DNA from: Fusobacterium sp. JB019
GTDB lineage: Bacteria > Fusobacteriota > Fusobacteriia > Fusobacteriales > Fusobacteriaceae
Reading direction: 5' to 3'
NCBI GenBank assembly: GCA_030673965.1
Contig: JAUTCN010000011.1
Coordinates: 1 to 64,000, forward strand
Length of the DNA: 64,000 nt
The position numbers and the translations under genes were made by a program. Below are positions 34,664-46,392 of this stretch, in pieces. Positions within the stretch are counted from its first letter, which is position 1. The number at the start of each line of letters is the position of its first letter. A model generated the notes under the pieces. It had not been told where the DNA came from. It ran no database searches and was given only the letters and a program-made list of their open reading frames with translations.

Positions 34664-36226
34664 TTATCTATCATTTTTAAGGCCCATAGGTTTATCTTGG
34701 AATATTCTAGAATCCATTAATTTTAAATCTTTAGCTATTAATGGTTTAAAATCCATTAAATCTAAAATATCTTTTTGTAAATCTACTCCAGGAGCTATTT
34801 CAATCAAAGTAAATCCTTCTTTTCTTAATTCAAATACAGCTCTTTCAGTTACATAGAAAACTGGTTGACCAACTTTTCTAGCATAATCTCCAGAGAAAGT
34901 TATTTGTTGAACAGTATCTACAAATTTTTTCTTAGCACCTTCTTTTAATATTTTTAATTCTCCATTAGCAACTTCTACTTTAAGACCTTTTGCAGTAAAA
35001 GTTCCACAGAAAACAACTTTTTTAGCATTTTGGCTGATACTAACAAATCCACCACATCCAGATATATTAGTTCCAAATTTACTTACATTTAAATTTCCAT
35101 GTTTATCTGCTTGAGCCAATCCTAAGAAAGCAATATCAAGTCCACCACCATCATAAAAATCAAATTGATAAGGTTGATCTATAATGGCATCAGCATTAAT
35201 AGAGGTACCGAATCTCATTCCTGATTGAGGCATTCCACCAATAGGTCCAGATTCAACAGTTAAAACCATATAATCACTTATTTGTTCTTCTGTTGCAACA
35301 GCAGAAACATATTCAGGAACTCCTATTCCTAAATTACCAATACTTCCTTTTTCAATTTCCATAGTTGCTCTTCTAGCAATAACTTTTTTAGCGTTTAATT
35401 CCATAGGTTTAATATGAGAATTAGCACTAAATATTATATTCCCTGCTAATTCAGGCTCATATTGAATATCGTAAACTTGTTGTTTTAAATGAGGTTCTTC
35501 AACTTCAACAACATAATCAACGTAGATTCCAGGTATTTTAACTAATTTAGGATCTAAACTACCGGTTTTTACTATTTTATCTACTTGAACAATAACCTTA
35601 CCTCCACAGTTGTGAACAGCTTGAGCAATGGAAATACATTCTGTAGTAACTCCTTCTTTTTCTAAAGAAATATTTCCTCTTTCATCAGCAAGACTTCCTT
35701 TGATAAGTCCAATATCAAATTTCATAGGTTCGTAGAAAAGTTTTTCTTGACCATTGATATTTACTAGTTTAACTATATCTTCTGTGGTAACATCATTTAA
35801 TCTACCACCTTCTATTCTAGGATCAGCAAAAGTATTTAATCCAACGTGCGTAAAAGTTCCTACTTTTCCTCCAGCAACATCTCTTAACATATGGCAAAGA
35901 GCTCCTTGAGGTACGTTATAAGCTTGAATCTTATTGTTTCTAATTAATTCTCCTAATTTTGGAGCTTTATTAAAATGTCCAGCAACTACTTTTCTTAATA
36001 AGCCTTCATGAGCTACGTGATTAACAGATCTATCTTTTCCATCTCCTTGTCCAGCAGCATAGAATAAAGTTAAATCTTTAGGTGCTTTTGTTTCTAAAAA
36101 TCTTTCTTCTAAAGCAACTTCTAGTCCTTCAGGATTACTACATCCTACAAAACCAGAAGTAACTATTGTATCATTGTTATTTATTACATTTACAGCTTCT
36201 CTAAGAGAAACAAAATTTGTGATCAT
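34664..36226 (-). CDS. pct: propionate (acyl-CoA:carboxylate) CoA-transferase
   Basis: The 520-residue protein is a full-length family I CoA-transferase with fused alpha and beta halves. The catalytic Glu325 lies in VESGPIGGMPQSG, at the place of Glu324 in the Pct of Clostridium propionicum. The N-terminal half has GFVGCSNPEGLE. It would move CoA from propionyl- or acetyl-CoA to lactate, giving lactoyl-CoA. It is the last gene of the minus-strand operon with the acyl-CoA dehydrogenase, EtfAB and a lactate permease, and faces the dehydratase genes. The ribosome-binding site is GGAGG. Confidence 0.9.
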   Translation of the reverse strand: MITNFVSLREAVNVINNNDTIVTSGFVGCSNPEGLEVALEERFLETKAPKDLTLFYAAGQGDGKDRSVNHVAHEGLLRKVVAGHFNKAPKLGELIRNNKIQAYNVPQGALCHMLRDVAGGKVGTFTHVGLNTFADPRIEGGRLNDVTTEDIVKLVNINGQEKLFYEPMKFDIGLIKGSLADERGNISLEKEGVTTECISIAQAVHNCGGKVIVQVDKIVKTGSLDPKLVKIPGIYVDYVVEVEEPHLKQQVYDIQYEPELAGNIIFSANSHIKPMELNAKKVIARRATMEIEKGSIGNLGIGVPEYVSAVATEEQISDYMVLTVESGPIGGMPQSGMRFGTSINADAIIDQPYQFDFYDGGGLDIAFLGLAQADKHGNLNVSKFGTNISGCGGFVSISQNAKKVVFCGTFTAKGLKVEVANGELKILKEGAKKKFVDTVQQITFSGDYARKVGQPVFYVTERAVFELRKEGFTLIEIAPGVDLQKDILDLMDFKPLIAKDLKLMDSRIFQDKPMGLKNDR

Positions 36227-36240
36227 AAAATTTCCTCCTT

Positions 36241-37821
36241 TTATTTAAGTATAACAGGTAATAGTGGGAACAAAATATAAGAATAAATTAATGCAAGAGA
36301 AATATAAACTATCCAAAGAAAAGTAATTGGTTTAGCAACTCTTCTCATGACTAATCCTTCAGAATTTTGCATATTAACAGTTGCACATACAGCAACAACA
36401 TTGTTAGGACAAATCATATTTCCTAAAGCTCCTCCTGCGTTTTGAGCACCGAGAACTGCAGGTAAATTAAGATTTAAAATTTTAACAGCTTCATAATGCA
36501 TTGGAGCAAACATTATATTTGATCCTGTTGTAGTTCCAGTAACAAAAGATCCTAAAGATCCAATAAAAACAGCTATTCCAGGATAAAGCATTCCAGTATG
36601 AATTGCTAAGAAAGTTGCAATAATATGAAGCATTCCAGTAACTTTCATTAAATTAGCCATAGATAGTAAGGCTGACATAGCAATTAAAGCTCCTGAAACA
36701 TTATGAAATGCCTCGTTTGCATATGCTAAAAAATTATTAGTAGATTTTAAAATCATAGATCCAACGAAACAAACAAATAAGATTGTAGTTCCAATCCAGA
36801 TTGAAAAACCTAAATGTAAAAACCAACTTGGAGCAAAAAAACGAACAAGAGGAAGTAAAATTAGAAGAAGTAAATATGTGCTCATTGCAGTTATAGGTTT
36901 CATATTATTTTCTTCTGTTTTTTCTTCAAGAGTTATTTTAAATAAATCTTTAACAATAGTCTTTTTGTTAAAAGTTTTAATGTAAAATATAGCTCCAAAT
37001 AGAGAGAAGATACCAGCACAAATAGTAGGGAATTCTGCTCCTACAAAAGAACCAATTATTACTAAAGAGATTCCATAGCAAAACCCAACCATTAAAGAAA
37101 AATAACAGATATCTTTATCAAAACATTTTTTTCCCCAAAGGACAGAAAGAACTATAAAAGGGGCGATTAAAGCTCCCCAAAAATGGATTAATCCTGTAAT
37201 CATAGAAATATTTAATATAGTAGCATGCACATCTATAGAAGTTGGAATTGTATTATTTGCAATATAAGGAATATGAGCTATAAGATTTTTAAGTTCATTT
37301 ATTCCTACGCTGGATAAAAAAGGAGTAAAACCTCCAATAGTTGTAAAACCAGCAGCTCCTAGGGATGCAGCTATTCCATTAAAAATAAGTGAAGCAATAG
37401 CAGCATCTAAAGCAGGTATTCCCAAAATCATTAGAAAGGGAGCAGCAATAGCAGCAGGAGTTCCAGCTCCAGCAACCCCTTCCAAGAATCCACCAAAACA
37501 AAATCCTATAATAATAACTTGTTTCCGTTTGTCCGTAGTTAAATTTGCGATACATTCTTTAATTTTATTCATTGCTCCAGTTCTAATTAGCATACTTAAT
37601 ACTAAAAAGGCAGACCAAATCATATACACCATCTTAAAACCATCTATAATACCTTTTTTTGTCTGAGTGAAAAGAATTTCACTTGCTGTGTTAAAAAGAA
37701 AATAAGATATTATTAACGTGTAAATAATTGCGAAAATAGAAACCCATTTAGCTGGTTTTTTAAGACCCACAATACCAATTAATATAATTAGTAATGGTGT
37801 TAAAGATAAAAATAATTTCAT
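36241..37821 (-). CDS. lctP: L-lactate permease family transporter
   Basis: The 526-residue protein has about 12 to 14 hydrophobic segments and LctP signatures: GFCFGGFLEGVAGAGTPAAI (residues about 107-126), then LGAAGFTTIGGFTPF, and the C-terminal AQNAGGALGNMICPNNVVA. LctP proteins carry lactate (and glycolate) with protons. It lies 14 bases downstream of etfA and 14 bases upstream of pct, so the operon supplies its own substrate. This position is the strongest clue that the pathway uses lactate. Confidence 0.92.
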   Translation of the reverse strand: MKLFLSLTPLLIILIGIVGLKKPAKWVSIFAIIYTLIISYFLFNTASEILFTQTKKGIIDGFKMVYMIWSAFLVLSMLIRTGAMNKIKECIANLTTDKRKQVIIIGFCFGGFLEGVAGAGTPAAIAAPFLMILGIPALDAAIASLIFNGIAASLGAAGFTTIGGFTPFLSSVGINELKNLIAHIPYIANNTIPTSIDVHATILNISMITGLIHFWGALIAPFIVLSVLWGKKCFDKDICYFSLMVGFCYGISLVIIGSFVGAEFPTICAGIFSLFGAIFYIKTFNKKTIVKDLFKITLEEKTEENNMKPITAMSTYLLLLILLPLVRFFAPSWFLHLGFSIWIGTTILFVCFVGSMILKSTNNFLAYANEAFHNVSGALIAMSALLSMANLMKVTGMLHIIATFLAIHTGMLYPGIAVFIGSLGSFVTGTTTGSNIMFAPMHYEAVKILNLNLPAVLGAQNAGGALGNMICPNNVVAVCATVNMQNSEGLVMRRVAKPITFLWIVYISLALIYSYILFPLLPVILK

Positions 37822-37835
37822 AAATTACCTCCGTT

Positions 37836-38819
37836 TTATAGATTATTAAAATAAGTAATTAATTTAGGAATTATTTCAAATAAATCTCCAACGATACCTA
37901 AGTCAGAGTATTTAAAAATTTCAGCATTGGGGTTATTGTTGATAGAAATGATGTGTCTAGCTTGTTTAACTCCAGCTACATGTTGCATAGCTCCAGATAG
38001 TCCAATAGCAATGTAAAGATCAGGCTTTATAATTTTTCCAGTTTGTCCAATTTTTTCATACTCAGGTCTCCAACCATGATCGACTACAGATCTAGTTACC
38101 CCTATACCAGCTCCTAAAATATTAGCCAAATTTTCAATTAATTGAAAATTTTCAGGATTTTGAATACCTTTTCCCACTCCAATAACAATTTTAGAAGTTT
38201 CTAAAGGATATTTTTTTTGTTTTTTCAAAACTCGATCTTTCAATTCATATAAAATGTTTTCGTCCGATTCATAGTTTATGAAATTAACAGGTATATCATT
38301 ATATTTTTTGTGATTAATTTTCCAAGGTTCATTTTTGTTAATATTATTATTAAAGATGCAGACAAGATTTTTTAAATTATAGATACTTTTTTCTAATGCT
38401 TTAGTTCCATAAACTAATCTCTGAAAAATTATTTGATTATTTTTAAGAAGAAAGGATGAAATATTAGGAATATAATCAAAGTCTAATTTTTCAGCTAAAT
38501 AAGGAGCAATATCTAATTCAAAAAGGCTGTTTCCCATGATAATCATATCAATGTTTAAGTCTTTTTTTAGAGCAGTTAATATATTGGATATTTTGGTAGG
38601 ATAAATATAAGAGTTATCTTTATTTGTTATAAAAAAAATCTTTTTTATATTCCAGTCTTTTAAATTTTCTTTTAAATTTATTAATGATTCAGAATAAAGA
38701 GAAACTAGATAAATATTAGCATTGGTATTTATAGTTAGGTTAGAAGCTATATTTAAAAGTTCTTTAGAATAATCACTTAAATGATTATTTTTTTGATTTA
38801 AATAAATTAATGTATTCAT
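37836..38819 (-). CDS. etfA: electron transfer flavoprotein alpha subunit, divergent
   Basis: The 327-residue protein has a poorly conserved N-terminal half and a clear FAD-binding C-terminal half: GVGKGIQNPENF, then GAGIGVTRSVVDHGW, then IGQTGKIIKPDLYIAIGLSG and GIVGDLFEI. It pairs with EtfB and passes electrons to or from the acyl-CoA dehydrogenase encoded upstream. Its start overlaps the 3' end of etfB by 35 bases, indicating coupled translation. It is more divergent than housekeeping EtfA proteins, with a Lys/Asn-rich insert near residues 150-200. Confidence 0.9.
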   Translation of the reverse strand: MNTLIYLNQKNNHLSDYSKELLNIASNLTINTNANIYLVSLYSESLINLKENLKDWNIKKIFFITNKDNSYIYPTKISNILTALKKDLNIDMIIMGNSLFELDIAPYLAEKLDFDYIPNISSFLLKNNQIIFQRLVYGTKALEKSIYNLKNLVCIFNNNINKNEPWKINHKKYNDIPVNFINYESDENILYELKDRVLKKQKKYPLETSKIVIGVGKGIQNPENFQLIENLANILGAGIGVTRSVVDHGWRPEYEKIGQTGKIIKPDLYIAIGLSGAMQHVAGVKQARHIISINNNPNAEIFKYSDLGIVGDLFEIIPKLITYFNNL

Positions 38820-39552
38820 ATAATCCTCCGTTTAAACCCCATTCATCTAAATAATTTGAGATTTTTTTAACAGCTTTATCAGAATCAATATCTTTATAAA
38901 TTTTATTTTGACGTTTGACATTATAAACTTTTAATTTTAAATAAAGATCGTTTTTATTTTTGTCGTAATAACTTAAAGAAATAGGTTTGCTATTGATAGA
39001 CATAATGTCATTAATAGATGGATATTTAGGTTCATAAACATTTTTTCTAAAAGAAATTATACAAGGTAAGTTTATGGAAAGTTTTTCTAAAAAATCATCA
39101 GTTTCTTTTTTACAAATCAACTTATTATTAGAATATTGAATGTCTAAACAATGACTAATTAGAGGAATATCTAGTAAGCTACTTATCCTATAAGGAATCT
39201 CTCCTCTTGGATTATTAACATCTTGATCTCCTGTTAAAATTAAATCAAATGCTCCTTGTTTTTTGATTTCTTCAGCAAGAATAGATGCGACATCTTTAGG
39301 ATTATTTCCATTAAATACAATAAGATTACCAGAAGTACCTCCCAACCCTAAACAAGTTTTTAAACAATATAAGTTATTAGACTTTGAAATCATAAATATA
39401 ATAATTTCAGAATCTTCAGTATTTTTTATTTTGGAAGCTTTTTGTATGGCAAATTCATCATAAGGGTTTAGAATCTTTTTTTCATCAATATTTTCAAGTG
39501 TTAAATTTTCATTTGTAGGGAAAGTTTCATTTGCAATAACGATTATCTTCAT
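38785..39552 (-). CDS. etfB: electron transfer flavoprotein beta subunit, divergent
   Basis: The 255-residue protein keeps the EtfB layout (LNPYDEFAIQKA near residue 30, ILTGDQDVNNPRGEIPYRIS near residue 105, and KYPSINDIMSINSKPI near residue 170). Usual motifs are altered, for example the VKQVPDT-type start and the DGDTAQVGP-type AMP loop. It forms the Etf heterodimer with the overlapping etfA product. In the acrylate pathway the Etf serves acryloyl-CoA reductase. The call rests on the pairing with etfA plus the conserved spacing of blocks. Confidence 0.85.
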   Translation of the reverse strand: MKIIVIANETFPTNENLTLENIDEKKILNPYDEFAIQKASKIKNTEDSEIIIFMISKSNNLYCLKTCLGLGGTSGNLIVFNGNNPKDVASILAEEIKKQGAFDLILTGDQDVNNPRGEIPYRISSLLDIPLISHCLDIQYSNNKLICKKETDDFLEKLSINLPCIISFRKNVYEPKYPSINDIMSINSKPISLSYYDKNKNDLYLKLKVYNVKRQNKIYKDIDSDKAVKKISNYLDEWGLNGGLYEYINLFKSKK

Positions 39553-39613: not shown

Positions 39614-40765
39614 TTATCTTAAGATAGCACCAGAGATAACTAATTTTTGAATTTCATTAGTTCCTTCATAGATTTGAGTGATTTTAGCATCTCTCATCAT
39701 TCTTTCAACAGGATGATCCATAGTAAATCCTGTACCACCTAATACTTGTACAGCTTCAGTGGTAACTTCCATAGCTGTATTTGTAGCAGTTAGTTTAGCA
39801 ACAGCAGCAGGAATAGAATAAGGTAAATGCTCATCTTTAGACCAAGCAGCTTTTAAAGTAACAGCTTGAGCAGATTCTATTTTGTTATACATATCAGCTA
39901 ATTTAAATGCAATAACTTGAAGTTTAGAAATAGGTTTTCCAAATTGAACTCTTTCTTTAGCATAATTTAAAGCATATTCGTAGGCTCCTTTAGCAATACC
40001 AACTGCATGAGCAGCAACTCCAATTCTTCCACAATCAAGAGTAGCCATAGCTATTTTGAATCCTTTTCCTTCTTGTCCTAATAAGTTTTCAGCAGGAACT
40101 TCTAAATTTTCCATTTCAATAACATTTTGAACAGAAGCTCTTATTCCCATTTTAGCTTCTCTTTTAATAAATTTGATTCCAGGGAAATTTTTAGGTTCAA
40201 CTATAAATGCACTTATTCCTTTTGTTCCTAATTCAGGATTAGTCATTGCAAACACAACTATAACATCTGCAAATTCTCCATTAGTTGTAAAACATTTAGT
40301 TCCATTTAATATATATTTATCTCCTTTTTTAACTGCAGTACATTGGCTAGCACTAGCATCACTACCAGCACAAGGTTCAGTTAAACCAAAGGCTGCAATG
40401 TATTCTCCAGAACATAATTTAGGAAGATATTTTTGTTTTTGTTCTTCGTTACCAAAATTATATATAGGCCCAGTTCCTAAAGAAATATGAACAGAATAAG
40501 AAATACCAAGTGAAGCATCTACTTTATTAAGTTCAAAACCAGCTAAAGCATATTCAAGATACCCAAGTCCAGCTCCTCCATATTTTTTATCGTAAGGAAT
40601 TCCCATTAAACCTAACTTACCCATTTTTTTTAATAAATCTCTAGTTGCTAAGAAATCTCCATTAATATCTCTTTCTTTAGATCCTGGAGCAACTTCATTT
40701 AAAGAAAAGTCTTTTACCATTTGGCAAATACGTTCTTGTTCTTCAGTAAATTTTAAACTGTACAT
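39614..40765 (-). CDS. acyl-CoA dehydrogenase, probable acryloyl-CoA reductase (propionyl-CoA dehydrogenase)
   Basis: The start chosen is ATG 40765 (MYSLKFTEEQ), behind GGGGTG; an in-frame GTG at 40774 is less well placed. The 383-residue flavoprotein has FGLTEPCAGSDASA, then KCFTTNGEFADV, and the catalytic Glu367 in YEGTNEIQ, the same number as in short-chain butyryl-CoA dehydrogenases. It would reduce acryloyl-CoA to propionyl-CoA with electrons from EtfAB. It is the first gene of the operon etfB-etfA-lctP-pct. Butyryl-CoA dehydrogenase activity is the alternative; the neighbours favour acryloyl-CoA. Confidence 0.88.
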   Translation of the reverse strand: MYSLKFTEEQERICQMVKDFSLNEVAPGSKERDINGDFLATRDLLKKMGKLGLMGIPYDKKYGGAGLGYLEYALAGFELNKVDASLGISYSVHISLGTGPIYNFGNEEQKQKYLPKLCSGEYIAAFGLTEPCAGSDASASQCTAVKKGDKYILNGTKCFTTNGEFADVIVVFAMTNPELGTKGISAFIVEPKNFPGIKFIKREAKMGIRASVQNVIEMENLEVPAENLLGQEGKGFKIAMATLDCGRIGVAAHAVGIAKGAYEYALNYAKERVQFGKPISKLQVIAFKLADMYNKIESAQAVTLKAAWSKDEHLPYSIPAAVAKLTATNTAMEVTTEAVQVLGGTGFTMDHPVERMMRDAKITQIYEGTNEIQKLVISGAILR

Positions 40766-40813
40766 AAATAACACCCCTTTTATATTTTATTAGTAAAATT
40801 TAGGCTTTAAAAA

Positions 40814-40943: not shown

Positions 40944-42428
40944 TTAAGAGTGCAGATTCATTATTTTTAGTATCATATGATTGTATTTGTTCCATGAAGC
41001 TTCTATTTCTTCAGGAGAGAATTCTTTGGAAACTTCAGAAGTTTTAAGCTTGTCAAAGACAAGATTAATATGTCTAATTGTGGAATAATTATTAACAGTA
41101 CTTAAAAAATCTTCTTTAGTTTCTGAAAGTAAAGCAACATTTTTTAAAAAGACACTATCTTTATTGCAAAATACAGACATTTTAAAGTCCAAATAATCTA
41201 AATTTAATAAATTATCATCAATAACATAAATTTTTATTCTAGGATTACTTTTAAGAACACTAATAAAATAATTATAATGTTCTAATATTTCTTCAGGAGT
41301 CATTTTATATTTAACGTTCATAAAATAAATAGTTTTTTCCTGAAAATATTTTAAAATAGAAGATTTAAATACAAAGAAATTAATAGAAGCTTGTTCAAAC
41401 ATTTCATTCCAAGTAATCATTAAATCTTGCATACTTATTAATTCTCTTTTTGGAAAATTATTTTTTAAAGCATAGTTAAGTATATTTTGAATGATATTTT
41501 GTGGTATTAAAAATTCAAATCCGCTTGTAAGTAAGAAATTAAAATTATCATGAGTGTAGAAATTAGTTCTATAGGCTTTTCTTATTAAGGAGTTATGATC
41601 TTTTATTGAAAATATTCTATTTAAAGAATTCATAGATTTGCTAAGAGTAGACAAAAGTTTCTTTACTTTGTATTTGTTCGTTGTAGAAATTAAAGTTTCA
41701 AATTGTCCTTCGTTATTAAGAGAATAAAGAAAAGATATTTTATCTTTAATAACTATAGTATTTAAGTTTTCAAAATAAGAGCTATTATAAAGTTCAAAAT
41801 TTATATTTATAAATTGATTTAAAATCATATATATTTTTTTTATGTTTTTAATAGCATTATCATCGTCAGCTAAAAGGTGAATTCCAAGATAAATTTTTAT
41901 TTTTAAACTTTCAGGTTTCATTTTGGAAAGTAGAGAAATTATGTAGAGGCAGTCGATTGTTGTAATGTCTAAAGTCATATAAAATTCCAAGGTGTGATTA
42001 GCTTCATTTATTTGTTGTCTTAAAATTGTACTTAAAAATGATTTGATTTGAGTGTTTTCAATTAAAAAAACATCTGGAGTTTCCTTTTCTTCATGAGAAG
42101 AACATTCTAAATAAGAACTGTTTAATAAATTGTAAATCTTATCCCCTAATATTTTAGAGTTTATTGAAAAATTTTTTCTGGGTTTTTCAATATTGAATTT
42201 ATTGAAAAATTGATTTTCCTTATTCAGGCTGAGTATTTCAGAAGAAACTAAATCCGAAATTTTTTCATTTATTTCTTTAATTGATTTAGAGCTTGGAAGC
42301 TTAACTCCGTTACACCATTTGCTAATATAAGACACATCGTAACCCAAGTGATTTCCTAATATTAAAAACTTAACCTCAGAAAAAGTTAATAGATTTCTAA
42401 GGGTACTTCCATAATTTTTTTTTCCCAT
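40944..42428 (-). CDS. large HTH regulator of unknown family between the propionate operons
   Basis: I do not recognise a named family for this 494-residue protein. Residues about 10-55 look like a helix-turn-helix (FLILGNHLGYDVSYISKWCN, followed by GVKLPSSKSIKEI). The remaining 430 residues are soluble, Asn/Lys/Phe-rich and without transmembrane segments or a domain I can name; they could sense a ligand and oligomerise. The gene lies between two divergent operons of one pathway and next to a repeat array, so a role as their regulator is likely. It is transcribed in the same direction as the dehydrogenase operon but separated from it by a terminator. Confidence 0.6.
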   Translation of the reverse strand: MGKKNYGSTLRNLLTFSEVKFLILGNHLGYDVSYISKWCNGVKLPSSKSIKEINEKISDLVSSEILSLNKENQFFNKFNIEKPRKNFSINSKILGDKIYNLLNSSYLECSSHEEKETPDVFLIENTQIKSFLSTILRQQINEANHTLEFYMTLDITTIDCLYIISLLSKMKPESLKIKIYLGIHLLADDDNAIKNIKKIYMILNQFININFELYNSSYFENLNTIVIKDKISFLYSLNNEGQFETLISTTNKYKVKKLLSTLSKSMNSLNRIFSIKDHNSLIRKAYRTNFYTHDNFNFLLTSGFEFLIPQNIIQNILNYALKNNFPKRELISMQDLMITWNEMFEQASINFFVFKSSILKYFQEKTIYFMNVKYKMTPEEILEHYNYFISVLKSNPRIKIYVIDDNLLNLDYLDFKMSVFCNKDSVFLKNVALLSETKEDFLSTVNNYSTIRHINLVFDKLKTSEVSKEFSPEEIEASWNKYNHMILKIMNLHS

Positions 42429-42616: not shown

Positions 42617-42692
42617 ATAGGTGTAAAAAATAATTTTTTTGTTCTAATGAACTACATAAAAATAATTAAAAAGTTTAAGGAGGAGATTTATA

Positions 42693-43109
42693 ATGAAACC
42701 AATGAGAATGCATCATGTAGGAATAGTTTTACCAACTTTAGAAAAGGCACATTCATATATTGAAAAAATGGGGCTAGATATAGACTACACTGGATATGTA
42801 GAAGCTTATCAAGCTGATTTAATTTTTACAAAATATCCTGATAATAGTAGCCCTATAGAATTTATAATTCCTAGAGCCGGAGTACTTAAAGAATATAATA
42901 AAGGAAAAGGAGGAATAGCTCATTTAGCTTTTGAAGTAGAGGATGTAGAGGCAGTTAGAAAAGAAATGGAAGAAAAGGGATTAGAAATGTTAGAAAAGAA
43001 AGCTGTTACAGGAACAGATGATATAATAGTTAACTTTATGAGACCTAAATTTTCAGAAGGTATACTTACTGAATTCGTTCAAACAGTAGCACCAATAAAA
43101 AGAGATTAA
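42693..43109 (+). CDS. VOC-superfamily protein, methylmalonyl-CoA-epimerase-like
   Basis: The 138-residue protein is a two-module vicinal-oxygen-chelate fold. The four expected metal ligands are visible: His8 in MHHVGIV, Glu56 in IEFIIP, His77 in GIAHLAFEV and Glu127 in LTEFVQ. Methylmalonyl-CoA epimerases of this fold invert the carbon next to a thioester. No mutase or carboxylase for the methylmalonyl route is seen here. Instead the gene heads the 2-hydroxyacyl-CoA dehydratase operon, 22 bases before the activator. A lactoyl-CoA (2-hydroxyacyl-CoA) epimerase role is therefore an attractive inference, because these dehydratases accept only the R form. Confidence 0.78.
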   Translation: MKPMRMHHVGIVLPTLEKAHSYIEKMGLDIDYTGYVEAYQADLIFTKYPDNSSPIEFIIPRAGVLKEYNKGKGGIAHLAFEVEDVEAVRKEMEEKGLEMLEKKAVTGTDDIIVNFMRPKFSEGILTEFVQTVAPIKRD

Positions 43110-43131: not shown

Positions 43132-43926
43132 ATGTGTTATACAGTAGGAGTAGACATTGGGTCATCATCTTCTAAGGCAGTCATTTTAAAAAATGGAAAA
43201 GAAGTTATAGCGACAGACGTTTTACAAGTTGGGATAGGAAGTAAAGGTCCTAAAGTTATACTAGAAAGTGTTTTAAATAAATCCAAAATGGAAAGAAAAG
43301 ACATAGATCAAATTGTTGTAACTGGATATGGTAGATTTACTTTTGATGAAGCAGATAAACAAATAAGTGAAATAAGTTGTCATGCTAAAGGAATTCATTT
43401 TCTAGTGCCAGAAGCAAAGACTGTTATAGATATTGGAGGACAGGATGCAAAGGCGATTAGTTTAAATTCTAAAGGTAAAATAAACCAATTTTTTATGAAT
43501 GATAAATGTGCTGCAGGAACAGGAAGATTTATAACTGTTATGTCAAAAGTTTTAGAAATTCCTTTAGATGAGATGAAAGATTATGATAAAAAAGCAGATG
43601 CTCCAGTTACTGTAAGTAGTACATGCACAGTTTTCGCAGAATCGGAAGTTATATCTCAATTAGCTAAAGGGGCAACAACAGAAAATATAGTAGCAGGTGT
43701 TCATAATTCAGTAGCTCATAAGGTTAGCGGTTTAGCTAAAAGAACTCCATTAGAAGATAATGTAGTTATGTGTGGGGGAGTTGCTAAAAATACAGGAGTT
43801 GTTCGTGCATTAAGAGAAACTTTAAATAGAAATGTAATAGTTGCTCCAAATCCTCAGCTAACAGGAGCTTTAGGAGCTGCAATATATGCCTATGAAGAAA
43901 TTTTAAAGAAAAGGAGAGATGATTAA
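43132..43926 (+). CDS. 2-hydroxyacyl-CoA dehydratase activator (HgdC/LcdC-type ATPase)
   Basis: The 264-residue protein has the actin-like ATPase fold of activators: GVDIGSSSSKAV (phosphate 1 loop), then VIDIGGQDAK, and the C-terminal CGGVAKNTGVVRAL. Cys126 (NDKCAAGTG) and Cys165 (SSTCTVF) are the ligands that hold one [4Fe-4S] cluster between two subunits; they match Cys127 and Cys166 of the Acidaminococcus HgdC. ATP hydrolysis drives a one-electron transfer to the dehydratase. It ends 3 bases before the alpha subunit gene. Confidence 0.95.
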   Translation: MCYTVGVDIGSSSSKAVILKNGKEVIATDVLQVGIGSKGPKVILESVLNKSKMERKDIDQIVVTGYGRFTFDEADKQISEISCHAKGIHFLVPEAKTVIDIGGQDAKAISLNSKGKINQFFMNDKCAAGTGRFITVMSKVLEIPLDEMKDYDKKADAPVTVSSTCTVFAESEVISQLAKGATTENIVAGVHNSVAHKVSGLAKRTPLEDNVVMCGGVAKNTGVVRALRETLNRNVIVAPNPQLTGALGAAIYAYEEILKKRRDD

Positions 43927-43929
43927 GTT

Positions 43930-45189
43930 ATGGATGAGAAAAAAGATATAAAAAATATGAGTGCTAAAGAATTGCTAGCTTATTATCAAGGACAATTAGA
44001 TGAAGAAGCAAGACAAGCCAAAAAAGAGGGACGTTTAGTTTGTTGGTCAGCTTCAGTAGCACCACCAGAATTTTGTGTAGCAATGGATATAGCTATGGTT
44101 TATCCTGAAACTCATGCAGCAGGGATAGGAGCAAGAAAAGGATCATTAGATATGCTAGAAGTAGCCGATCAAAAAGGTTATTCATTAGATATATGTTCTT
44201 ATGCCAGAGTAAATTTAGGTTATATGGAATTATTAAAAGAAAAAGCTTTAACAGGAAAAACTCCAGAAAAATTAAAAAATTCACCCGCAGCAGACGTACC
44301 TTTACCTGATTTAGTTATTACTTGTAATAATATTTGTAACACTTTATTGAAATGGTATGAGAATTTAGCAAAGGAATTAAATATACCATGTATTGTTATA
44401 GATGTACCATTTAATCATACAATGCCAATTCCTCAATATGCTAAAGATTATATAGCATCTCAATTTGAAGAAGCTATAAGTCAATTAGAAGAAATTACAG
44501 GAAAGAAATTTGATTATGACAAATTCTTAGAAGTTCAAAAACAAACTCAGCGTTCAGTAGCTCAATGGAATAGAGTTGCTAAAATGTCTCAATATAAACC
44601 ATCTCCATTAAATTGCTTTGATTTATTTAATTATATGGCTTTAATAGTTTGTGCAAGAAGTAGAGATTGTGCAGAAATAACATTTAAGAAATTTGCAGAT
44701 GAATTAGAAGAAAAATTAGCAAATAAACAATATGCTTTAAAAGGAAATGAAAAGAAAAGAATTACTTGGGAAGGAATTGCAGTTTGGCCTAACCTAGGAC
44801 ATACATTTAAAACACTTAAAAATTTAGGAATTATAATGACAGGATCTGCTTATCCAGGATTATGGAATTTAGAATATACTCCAGGAGATATGAGTTCAAT
44901 GGCAGATGCTTATACTAGAATATATATTAATACTTGCTTAGATAACAGAGCTAAAGTATTAACAGATGTAGTAGAAGGCGGAAAATGTGATGGAGTTCTT
45001 TATCATACAAACAGAAGTTGTAAATTAATGAGTTTCTTGAATTCAGAAACAGCTGAAATAGTTCAAGAAAAAACAGGATTACCATTTACTAGTTTTGATG
45101 GAGACCAAACAGACCCTAGAAATTATTCACCAGCTCAATATGAAACTCGTGTACAAGCATTAGATGAAATAATGAATGAAGAAAATTAA
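43930..45189 (+). CDS. 2-hydroxyacyl-CoA dehydratase alpha subunit, probable lactoyl-CoA dehydratase
   Basis: The 419-residue protein is the larger dehydratase subunit, with conserved segments GRLVCWSASVAPPEFC (about residues 35-50), HAAGIGARKG, SYARVNLGY, VITCNNICNT and DQTDPRNYSPAQ. Several cysteines are available as ligands for the [4Fe-4S] cluster. The complex removes water from (R)-2-hydroxyacyl-CoA by ketyl-radical chemistry. Homologues act on lactoyl-, hydroxyglutaryl- or hydroxyisocaproyl-CoA. Lactoyl-CoA is inferred from the neighbouring lactate permease, CoA-transferase and acyl-CoA dehydrogenase. Confidence 0.9.
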   Translation: MDEKKDIKNMSAKELLAYYQGQLDEEARQAKKEGRLVCWSASVAPPEFCVAMDIAMVYPETHAAGIGARKGSLDMLEVADQKGYSLDICSYARVNLGYMELLKEKALTGKTPEKLKNSPAADVPLPDLVITCNNICNTLLKWYENLAKELNIPCIVIDVPFNHTMPIPQYAKDYIASQFEEAISQLEEITGKKFDYDKFLEVQKQTQRSVAQWNRVAKMSQYKPSPLNCFDLFNYMALIVCARSRDCAEITFKKFADELEEKLANKQYALKGNEKKRITWEGIAVWPNLGHTFKTLKNLGIIMTGSAYPGLWNLEYTPGDMSSMADAYTRIYINTCLDNRAKVLTDVVEGGKCDGVLYHTNRSCKLMSFLNSETAEIVQEKTGLPFTSFDGDQTDPRNYSPAQYETRVQALDEIMNEEN

Positions 45190-45204
45190 GTGGAGGTTAA
45201 AGAT

Positions 45205-46326
45205 ATGGAAGGAAATTTAAAGAAATTTATCGATTTATTTGAACATATAGCATCAAATCCAGTAGAAGCAATAAAAAATCATAAAAAAGAAACAGGAAAA
45301 GGAGCAGTAGGAGTTTTACCAGTATATGCTCCAGAAGAATTAATAGATGCAGCAGGATATTTACCAGTAGGTATTTGGGGTGGACATCATGAAATATCAA
45401 AAGCTAGAACATATTTACCAGCTTTTGCTTGTTCAATCATGCAATCAATTATGGAAATGGAATTAGAAGGAGCTTTTGATAATTTATCAGCTGTTTTAAT
45501 GTCAGTTCCTTGTGATACTTTAAAATGTTTTAGCCAAAAATGGCACGGAAAATGTAAACCTATAATATTTACTCATCCTCAAAACAGAAAAATAAAAGCA
45601 GCTAATTTATTCTTAGAAGAAGAATATAAAATAGTTCGTAGAAAATTAGAAGAAATATTGGATGTTAAAATTACAGATGAAGCTATAAATAAAAGTATAG
45701 AAGTTTATAATGAAAATAGAAAAGTTATGAGAGAATTTACTGAAATAGCAGCAAAATATCCTCAAATAATAGACCCAATAGTTAGACATAATGTTATTAA
45801 ATCAAGATGGTTTATAACTAAAAAACAACATACAGAATATGTTAAAGATTTCATAAAAGAAATTAAAAAATTAAAAGTAGAACCATGGAAAGGTAAGAAA
45901 GTTATTTTAACTGGAATAATGGCAGAACCAAAAGAAGTATTAGAAATAATGAAATCAGAAAATTTTGCAGTTGTTGCAGATGATTTGGCTCAAGAATCTC
46001 GTCAATTTAGAATTGATGTACCTGAAGGAGGAACTCCTTTACAAAGATTAGCAAAATGGTGGCAAGATTTTGACGGATGTGCATTAGCAACAGATCCTAA
46101 AAAAGTAAGAGGACAAATGCTAATAGATATGTGTAAAAAATATGAAGCAGATGCAGTTATAGTATGTATGATGAAATTCTGTGATCCAGAAGAATTTGAT
46201 TACCCAATATATTATAAAGAATTAAATAATGAAAATATAAGAAATATTATGATAGAAATAGATTTAGAGATGACATCTTTTGAACAAATAAAAACAAGAC
46301 TTCAAAGTTTTAATGAAACTTTGTAA
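45205..46326 (+). CDS. 2-hydroxyacyl-CoA dehydratase beta subunit, probable lactoyl-CoA dehydratase
   Basis: The start chosen is ATG 45205 (MEGNLKKFIDLF), about 8 bases after GGAGG; an in-frame GTG at 45190 would include the ribosome-binding site. The 373-residue protein has KGAVGVLPVYAPEELIDAAG (about residues 30-49), then SVPCDTLKCFSQKW and a C-terminal VCMMKFCDPEEFDYP. It pairs with the alpha subunit encoded just upstream. A terminator follows. Its narrow substrate range cannot be read from sequence alone. Confidence 0.9.
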   Translation: MEGNLKKFIDLFEHIASNPVEAIKNHKKETGKGAVGVLPVYAPEELIDAAGYLPVGIWGGHHEISKARTYLPAFACSIMQSIMEMELEGAFDNLSAVLMSVPCDTLKCFSQKWHGKCKPIIFTHPQNRKIKAANLFLEEEYKIVRRKLEEILDVKITDEAINKSIEVYNENRKVMREFTEIAAKYPQIIDPIVRHNVIKSRWFITKKQHTEYVKDFIKEIKKLKVEPWKGKKVILTGIMAEPKEVLEIMKSENFAVVADDLAQESRQFRIDVPEGGTPLQRLAKWWQDFDGCALATDPKKVRGQMLIDMCKKYEADAVIVCMMKFCDPEEFDYPIYYKELNNENIRNIMIEIDLEMTSFEQIKTRLQSFNETL

Positions 46327-46346: not shown

Positions 46347-46392
46347 TAAAAGGCTATAGGCAAATAATTTGTCTGTAGCCTTTTATTTTTTT
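46347..46392 (+). terminator. intrinsic terminator of the dehydratase operon
   Basis: AAAAGGCTATAGGCAAA pairs with TTTGTCTGTAGCCTTTT (two G-U pairs) and is followed by a T run. Confidence 0.88.

Follow-up and report, generated by a model that had tools for sequence, protein, structure and literature searches.

A fusobacterial LapB in an acrylate-pathway gene cluster, a predicted lactoyl-CoA epimerase

The closest described counterpart of the protein analyzed here comes from Coprococcus catus GD/7, in which Sheridan et al. 2022 (PMC8914356) reported a lactate-induced gene cluster, lapABCDEF, and named the product of lapB (GD-7_01095), a homologue of methylmalonyl-CoA epimerase (MCE), a "putative lactoyl-CoA epimerase". 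The same study listed a log2 change of -11.8 for this gene (fructose v lactate), noted lapB homologues in Megasphaera elsdenii, and found lapB to be absent from Anaerotignum propionicum, which is unable to use L-lactate (PMC8914356). The assignment was repeated in a 2022 review (PMC11406415). A. neopropionicum, which has no annotated racemase, grows on D- and not on L-lactate (PMC9205015), and among Fusobacterium species the acrylate pathway turned up in just one in a survey of genomes (PMC9403272). In the openly accessible literature, we found no enzymatic test of lactoyl-CoA epimerase activity, and no papers under the alternative names lactyl-CoA epimerase and lactoyl-CoA racemase.

We analyzed a 64,000-nucleotide stretch of DNA from Fusobacterium sp. 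JB019 (hereafter, the window), in which an intact open reading frame with an ATG start encodes a LapB homologue. An earlier note on this DNA had placed the gene at the head of an operon with a 2-hydroxyacyl-CoA dehydratase and its activator, and the arrangement was borne out: lapB, activase, dehydratase A and dehydratase B follow one another with intergenic gaps of 22, 3 and 0 bp, after which comes a terminator-like hairpin.

42677..42685, + strand: ribosome-binding site AAGGAGGAG of lapB, strong, read from the sequence
42693..43109, + strand: lapB, 138-aa VOC-fold protein, predicted lactoyl-CoA (2-hydroxyacyl-CoA) epimerase
43132..43926, + strand: 2-hydroxyacyl-CoA dehydratase activase (ATPase); TIGR00241 274.7 bits, above cut-off
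43930..45189, + strand: 2-hydroxyacyl-CoA dehydratase subunit A; PF06050 1e-69
45190..46326, + strand: 2-hydroxyacyl-CoA dehydratase subunit B; PF06050 6e-82
46347..46385, + strand: terminator-like hairpin at the operon end, 18-pair stem then T7

The lapB orthologue of a sister species is 95% identical (dN 0.022, dS 0.253), and the gene is under purifying selection. The dehydratase subunits matched no curated substrate-specific model above cut-off: subunit A reached 449 bits against the HadB equivalog model (cut-off 750), which thus does not call it a 2-hydroxyisocaproyl-CoA enzyme, and subunit B reached 504 bits against the HadC model (cut-off 700). Across from lapB, the opposite strand carries a second group of genes.

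40944..42428, - strand: 494-aa divergent protein, candidate regulator of the cluster; HTH_3 E 0.038, below cut-off
39614..40774, - strand: acryloyl-CoA reductase candidate (acyl-CoA dehydrogenase, AcrC-like); NF042972 439 bits, cut-off 640
38785..39552, - strand: divergent electron transfer flavoprotein (Etf), beta type; NF040731 79 bits, below cut-off
37836..38819, - strand: divergent electron transfer flavoprotein, alpha type; NF042970 (AcrA) 122 bits, C-terminal part only
36241..37821, - strand: lactate permease family transporter; PF02652 1e-75
34664..36226, - strand: CoA-transferase (propionate/lactate CoA-transferase candidate); PF01144 2e-27

Taken together, the predicted functions on both strands add up to the gene set that one would expect of an acrylate pathway converting lactate to propionate. 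The 494-aa protein matched no Pfam family above threshold, with a weak HTH as its sole signal; a homologue lies near lapB in 20 of the 33 loci described below, across Bacillota and Fusobacteriota, and the protein is a probable regulator of the lap cluster. It is a candidate lactate-responsive regulator of an undescribed type. The Etf pair beside AcrC (37836-39552, - strand) is very divergent (AcrA 122 versus 600 bits, AcrB 67 versus 475 bits), whereas AcrC itself is 87-97% identical to the copies in related genomes.

The window encodes the combination that defines LapB in C. catus, namely an MCE homologue together with a lactate CoA-transferase, a three-gene 2-hydroxyacyl-CoA dehydratase set and a lactate permease. 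It differs from the C. catus lap cluster in that its CoA-transferase, permease, AcrC and Etf genes are found on the other strand, across the divergent regulator candidate. A Lachnospiraceae locus displays the published lapABCDEF order, and its LapB is 72% identical to that of the window. Our assignment of the window LapB as a putative orthologue of C. catus LapB rests on gene order and on the description of the latter as an MCE homologue. The earlier note had offered the lactoyl-CoA assignment as filling a gap in the acrylate pathway; this proposal was already in print for C. catus LapB (PMC8914356), so the note had rediscovered a published prediction. New here are a paralogue test, an active-site comparison, the absence of the lactate racemase LarA and, in Megasphaera, forms with two fused domains.

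For the genomic context of lapB, we compiled 33 loci, 31 from named genomes and 2 from a separate genome search. Represented among the 31 are Clostridium homopropionicum, Anaerotignum lactatifermentans, several Megasphaera, Anaeroglobus, Peptoniphilus indolicus, Fusobacterium sp., Intestinimonas and a Myxococcota MAG, and several of these taxa are known lactate-to-propionate fermenters. LapB is rare in the class of Clostridium homopropionicum, where it occurred in 3 of 391 sampled genomes; MCE occurred in 20 of 196. A CoA-transferase, activase, dehydratase or lactate permease was encoded within 8 kb of lapB in 32 of the 33 loci, the sole locus without such neighbors being a 4-kb contig. Individually, the CoA-transferase was a neighbor in 30/33 loci, the activase and dehydratase A in 26/33 each, and the permease in 16/33. 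The check for lapB beside lcd-like genes elsewhere thus came out positive: in acrylate-pathway bacteria, lapB has lcd-like, CoA-transferase or lactate permease genes in its vicinity. In loci of the Anaerotignum/Tyzzerella type, lapB sits beside a permease (53-56% identical to that of the window), usually with a CoA-transferase too, and no dehydratase is nearby. Such an arrangement favors a reaction on lactoyl-CoA itself over an accessory role to the dehydratase, and it fits an enzyme that acts between lactate uptake or activation and dehydration.

Some loci displayed further features. In the MAG, assigned to Deltaproteobacteria/Myxococcota, lapB carries an insertion near residue 107 and is grouped with CoA-transferase, AcrC, dehydratase and activase genes, and the presence of this cluster outside Bacillota and Fusobacteriota suggests horizontal transfer. 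In Fusobacterium sp. S17M_Sa_57, genes for a D-type lactate dehydrogenase, an acyl-CoA dehydrogenase and Etf adjoin the lap cluster, so that a single locus holds lactate genes of both the oxidative and the reductive type. Seven loci of Megasphaera and Anaeroglobus encode a tandem double LapB in a single frame of 313-323 aa, with the four metal ligands (see below) kept in both domains, and Clostridium sp. ZS2-4 carries two separate lapB genes in tandem.

From these neighborhoods and the protein comparisons below, we conclude that LapB is probably a metal-dependent lactoyl-CoA epimerase. The reading of the earlier note is thereby supported as a prediction, given the separation from MCEs, the linkage to lactate genes and the lack of mutase and LarA. 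The alternative that survives best, which we nevertheless consider unlikely, is a 2-hydroxyacyl-CoA epimerase that acts chiefly on the thioester of some other acid, e.g., 2-hydroxybutyryl-CoA from threonine, with lactoyl-CoA as a secondary substrate. Lactoyl-CoA dehydratases also accept (R)-2-hydroxybutyryl-CoA (Hofmeister and Buckel 1992, as cited in PMC10053330), and the dehydratase subunits of the window are assigned to no particular substrate by the curated models. Against such a role, however, speak the linkage to a lactate permease, which is directly adjacent to lapB in the Anaerotignum type, and the induction of C. catus lapB by lactate (PMC8914356).

The predicted stereochemistry of lactate use in this genome points to where such an enzyme would be needed. 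Family profile searches of the 22-contig assembly (99% complete) found no LarA lactate racemase (PF09861), an absence that the earlier note had singled out for checking, and no LutB-type L-lactate dehydrogenase. NAD-dependent L-lactate dehydrogenases are present. An L-lactate dehydrogenase gene is part of a block that recurs as an inverted repeat at both ends of contig C5 (1-7544 and ~197356-204459), which may be a true duplication or may have arisen in the assembly. Contig C10 carries a cluster of permease, GlcD-type FAD dehydrogenase, acyl-CoA dehydrogenase and EtfBA genes, which is similar to the lct cluster of Anaerobutyricum (PMC8914356) but lacks its racemase gene. By analogy with characterized relatives, the C10 dehydrogenase would be D-specific and the dehydratase R-specific, the latter assumed from the A. 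propionicum enzyme. If both specificities hold, a racemising step is needed between L-lactate and both branches, and LapB would be the visible candidate for that step.

LapB is not simply a replacement for LarA. Among 24 genomes with LapB, we sought and did not find a clean lapB/larA complementarity, as 11 of the 24 encode a LarA-family protein above cut-off. Together with the lactate racemase activity and genes reported for Megasphaera elsdenii (PMC10819428), this indicates that the presence of LapB does not preclude that of LarA, or the reverse.

At the protein level, LapB matched Pfam Glyoxalase_4 (PF13669) with an E value of 7e-20 and 71.7 bits (gathering threshold 27), which places it in the VOC superfamily. 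Its AlphaFold2 model (pLDDT 92) gave Z scores of up to 18.1 against VOC structures, and the closest superpositions were those with MCE-type structures (Z 17-18, rmsd ~2 Å, 22-25% identity). The four metal ligands of the MCE fold that had been read from the sequence, His8, Glu56, His77 and Glu127, indeed align with the MCE ligands and are invariant in 42/42 relatives. At the second ligand position, the MCEs of Streptomyces and Mycobacterium have Gln and the human, Bacillus and clostridial MCEs have Glu, so that Glu56 gives LapB the second-ligand type of the latter group. At the site of Glu43 of the Streptomyces MCE, a residue that is mutated in PDB entries 6xbr and 6xbs, Gln-type MCEs have Glu, and Glu-type enzymes have an aliphatic residue or Thr: Leu43 in LapB, and V, I or T in human, Bacillus and clostridial MCEs. 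Since these MCEs also do without Glu43, the position fails to separate LapB from MCE. Asp42 of LapB was considered as the counterpart of Streptomyces Glu43 and rejected, as the alignment places Leu43 there instead. The comparison suggests that proton transfer in Glu-type enzymes falls to the ligand glutamates, as it does in glyoxalase I.

The four-ligand pattern is common to bacterial glyoxalase I, and clostridial glyoxalase structures superposed on LapB at Z 15.6. On these grounds, LapB could be a VOC enzyme of detoxification, similar to glyoxalase I or of another kind, that shields the pathway, e.g., from reactive acryloyl-CoA or from methylglyoxal. We consider this very improbable, however, as the glyoxalase I models NF050074 and TIGR00068 gave 26.1 and 22.4 bits (cut-offs 165 and 120), MCE-type structures fit better, and lapB is tightly linked to permease, CoA-transferase and dehydratase genes and not to stress genes. 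A little less probable still is that LapB serves the dehydratase without catalysis of its own, as a partner or in assembly. The proximity of the activase, which lies within 1 kb of lapB in 24/33 loci, would agree with such a role, but the full ligand set is invariant in all 42 copies, the Anaerotignum-type loci have no dehydratase near lapB, and the A. propionicum dehydratase works without LapB (PMC8914356).

The comparison with MCE gave the clearest separation. Against the MCE model TIGR03081, LapB scored 60.3 bits, well below the cut-off of 114.95. In a tree of 64 proteins, LapB and MCE formed separate clades (supports 83/93 and 92/95, one change each), with an arbitrary root and with long branches between the two groups that call for long-branch caution. 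Identity was 67% within LapB and 69% within MCE, versus 28% (at most 35%) between them, and 22 positions are fixed differently in the two families, while the four ligands are kept in both. The earlier note had seen no methylmalonyl-CoA mutase in the window; this absence extends to the whole genome by profile search (PF01642), so that the outcome that would have spoken against its reading, a mutase elsewhere together with tight clustering among MCEs, was not observed. The mutase is likewise missing from 22 of the 23 other genomes with LapB, i.e., from 23/24 in all. The exception, Dethiosulfatibacter aminovorans, provides an internal paralogue control: of its two MCEs that exceed the cut-off, the first immediately follows genes for a mutase, the B12 subunit of that mutase and a MeaB-type protein, and the second is grouped with a B12 subunit, a MeaB-type gene and a decarboxylase, whereas its third copy is a sub-threshold LapB in a cluster of CoA-transferase, LapB, activase and dehydratase. 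The true MCEs of Fusobacteriaceae also lie in mutase-decarboxylase clusters. That LapB is a true MCE, to which its nearest solved structures and shared ligands might point, is therefore the least credible reading, and by every test available LapB is not an MCE.

Gene order, fold, ligand conservation, the separation from MCE and the absence of mutase, LarA and LutB are observations of this analysis, and the substrate, stereochemistry, metal and proton-transfer steps of the following scheme are inferred. The CoA-transferase would load CoA onto L-lactate, and LapB would bind the resulting (S)-lactoyl-CoA, whose thioester oxygen and alpha-hydroxyl would both coordinate a divalent metal liganded by His8, Glu56, His77 and Glu127. 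Either Glu127 or Glu56 would abstract the alpha-proton, leaving an enediolate bound to the metal, and reprotonation of this intermediate on the opposite face would yield (R)-lactoyl-CoA. The activated dehydratase would then convert this product to acryloyl-CoA, and AcrC-Etf would reduce the latter to propionyl-CoA. Lactoyl-CoA is, at its alpha-carbon, a far weaker acid than methylmalonyl-CoA, and a match in fold is thus no guarantee of the reaction. This objection is partly answered by glyoxalase I, a member of the same superfamily, which passes through a metal-bound enediolate on the route to a lactoyl thioester.

Much more tentatively, LapB might constitute a distinct class of enzymes that epimerise 2-hydroxyacyl-CoA thioesters by a glyoxalase I-like enediolate mechanism on an MCE scaffold. 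In bacteria without larA, among them Fusobacterium sp. JB019, it might provide the sole step that racemises lactate, feeding both the propionate branch and, through CoA transfer back, the D-lactate-oxidising branch; we hold this wider proposal to be possible and rather doubtful. If the lactoyl-CoA epimerase assignment is true, it would explain how acrylate-pathway bacteria with a D-only dehydratase use L-lactate without recourse to the nickel-dependent racemase. A gene with similarity to methylmalonyl-CoA epimerase would receive an EC number, and annotation of propionate pathways would no longer count lapB as evidence of the succinate route. The assignment would also help to predict which gut bacteria are able to clear L-lactate, and would offer engineers a stereochemical switch for lactoyl-CoA.

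Set against the known systems, LapB resembles MCE (TIGR03081; 1jc4, 6wfh, 3rmu, 3oa4) in its fold (Z 15-18), its four ligand positions and, presumably, its acyl-CoA class of substrate, but it forms a clade of its own at 28% identity, below the TIGR03081 cut-off and without linkage to a mutase, and it differs from the Streptomyces MCE in having Glu at ligand 2 and Leu at the Glu43 position. With glyoxalase I (lactoylglutathione lyase), it shares the VOC fold and the four metal ligand positions, but it scores far below the curated models, and no link to glutathione or methylglyoxal genes was seen. LarA, a nickel-pincer enzyme that acts on free lactate and is unrelated to LapB, would serve the same physiological purpose, the interconversion of L- and D-lactate. 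With C. catus LapB, finally, the window protein shares the proposed reaction itself, and the sequence comparisons support it, as a prediction, as a new fusobacterial member of this already proposed family.
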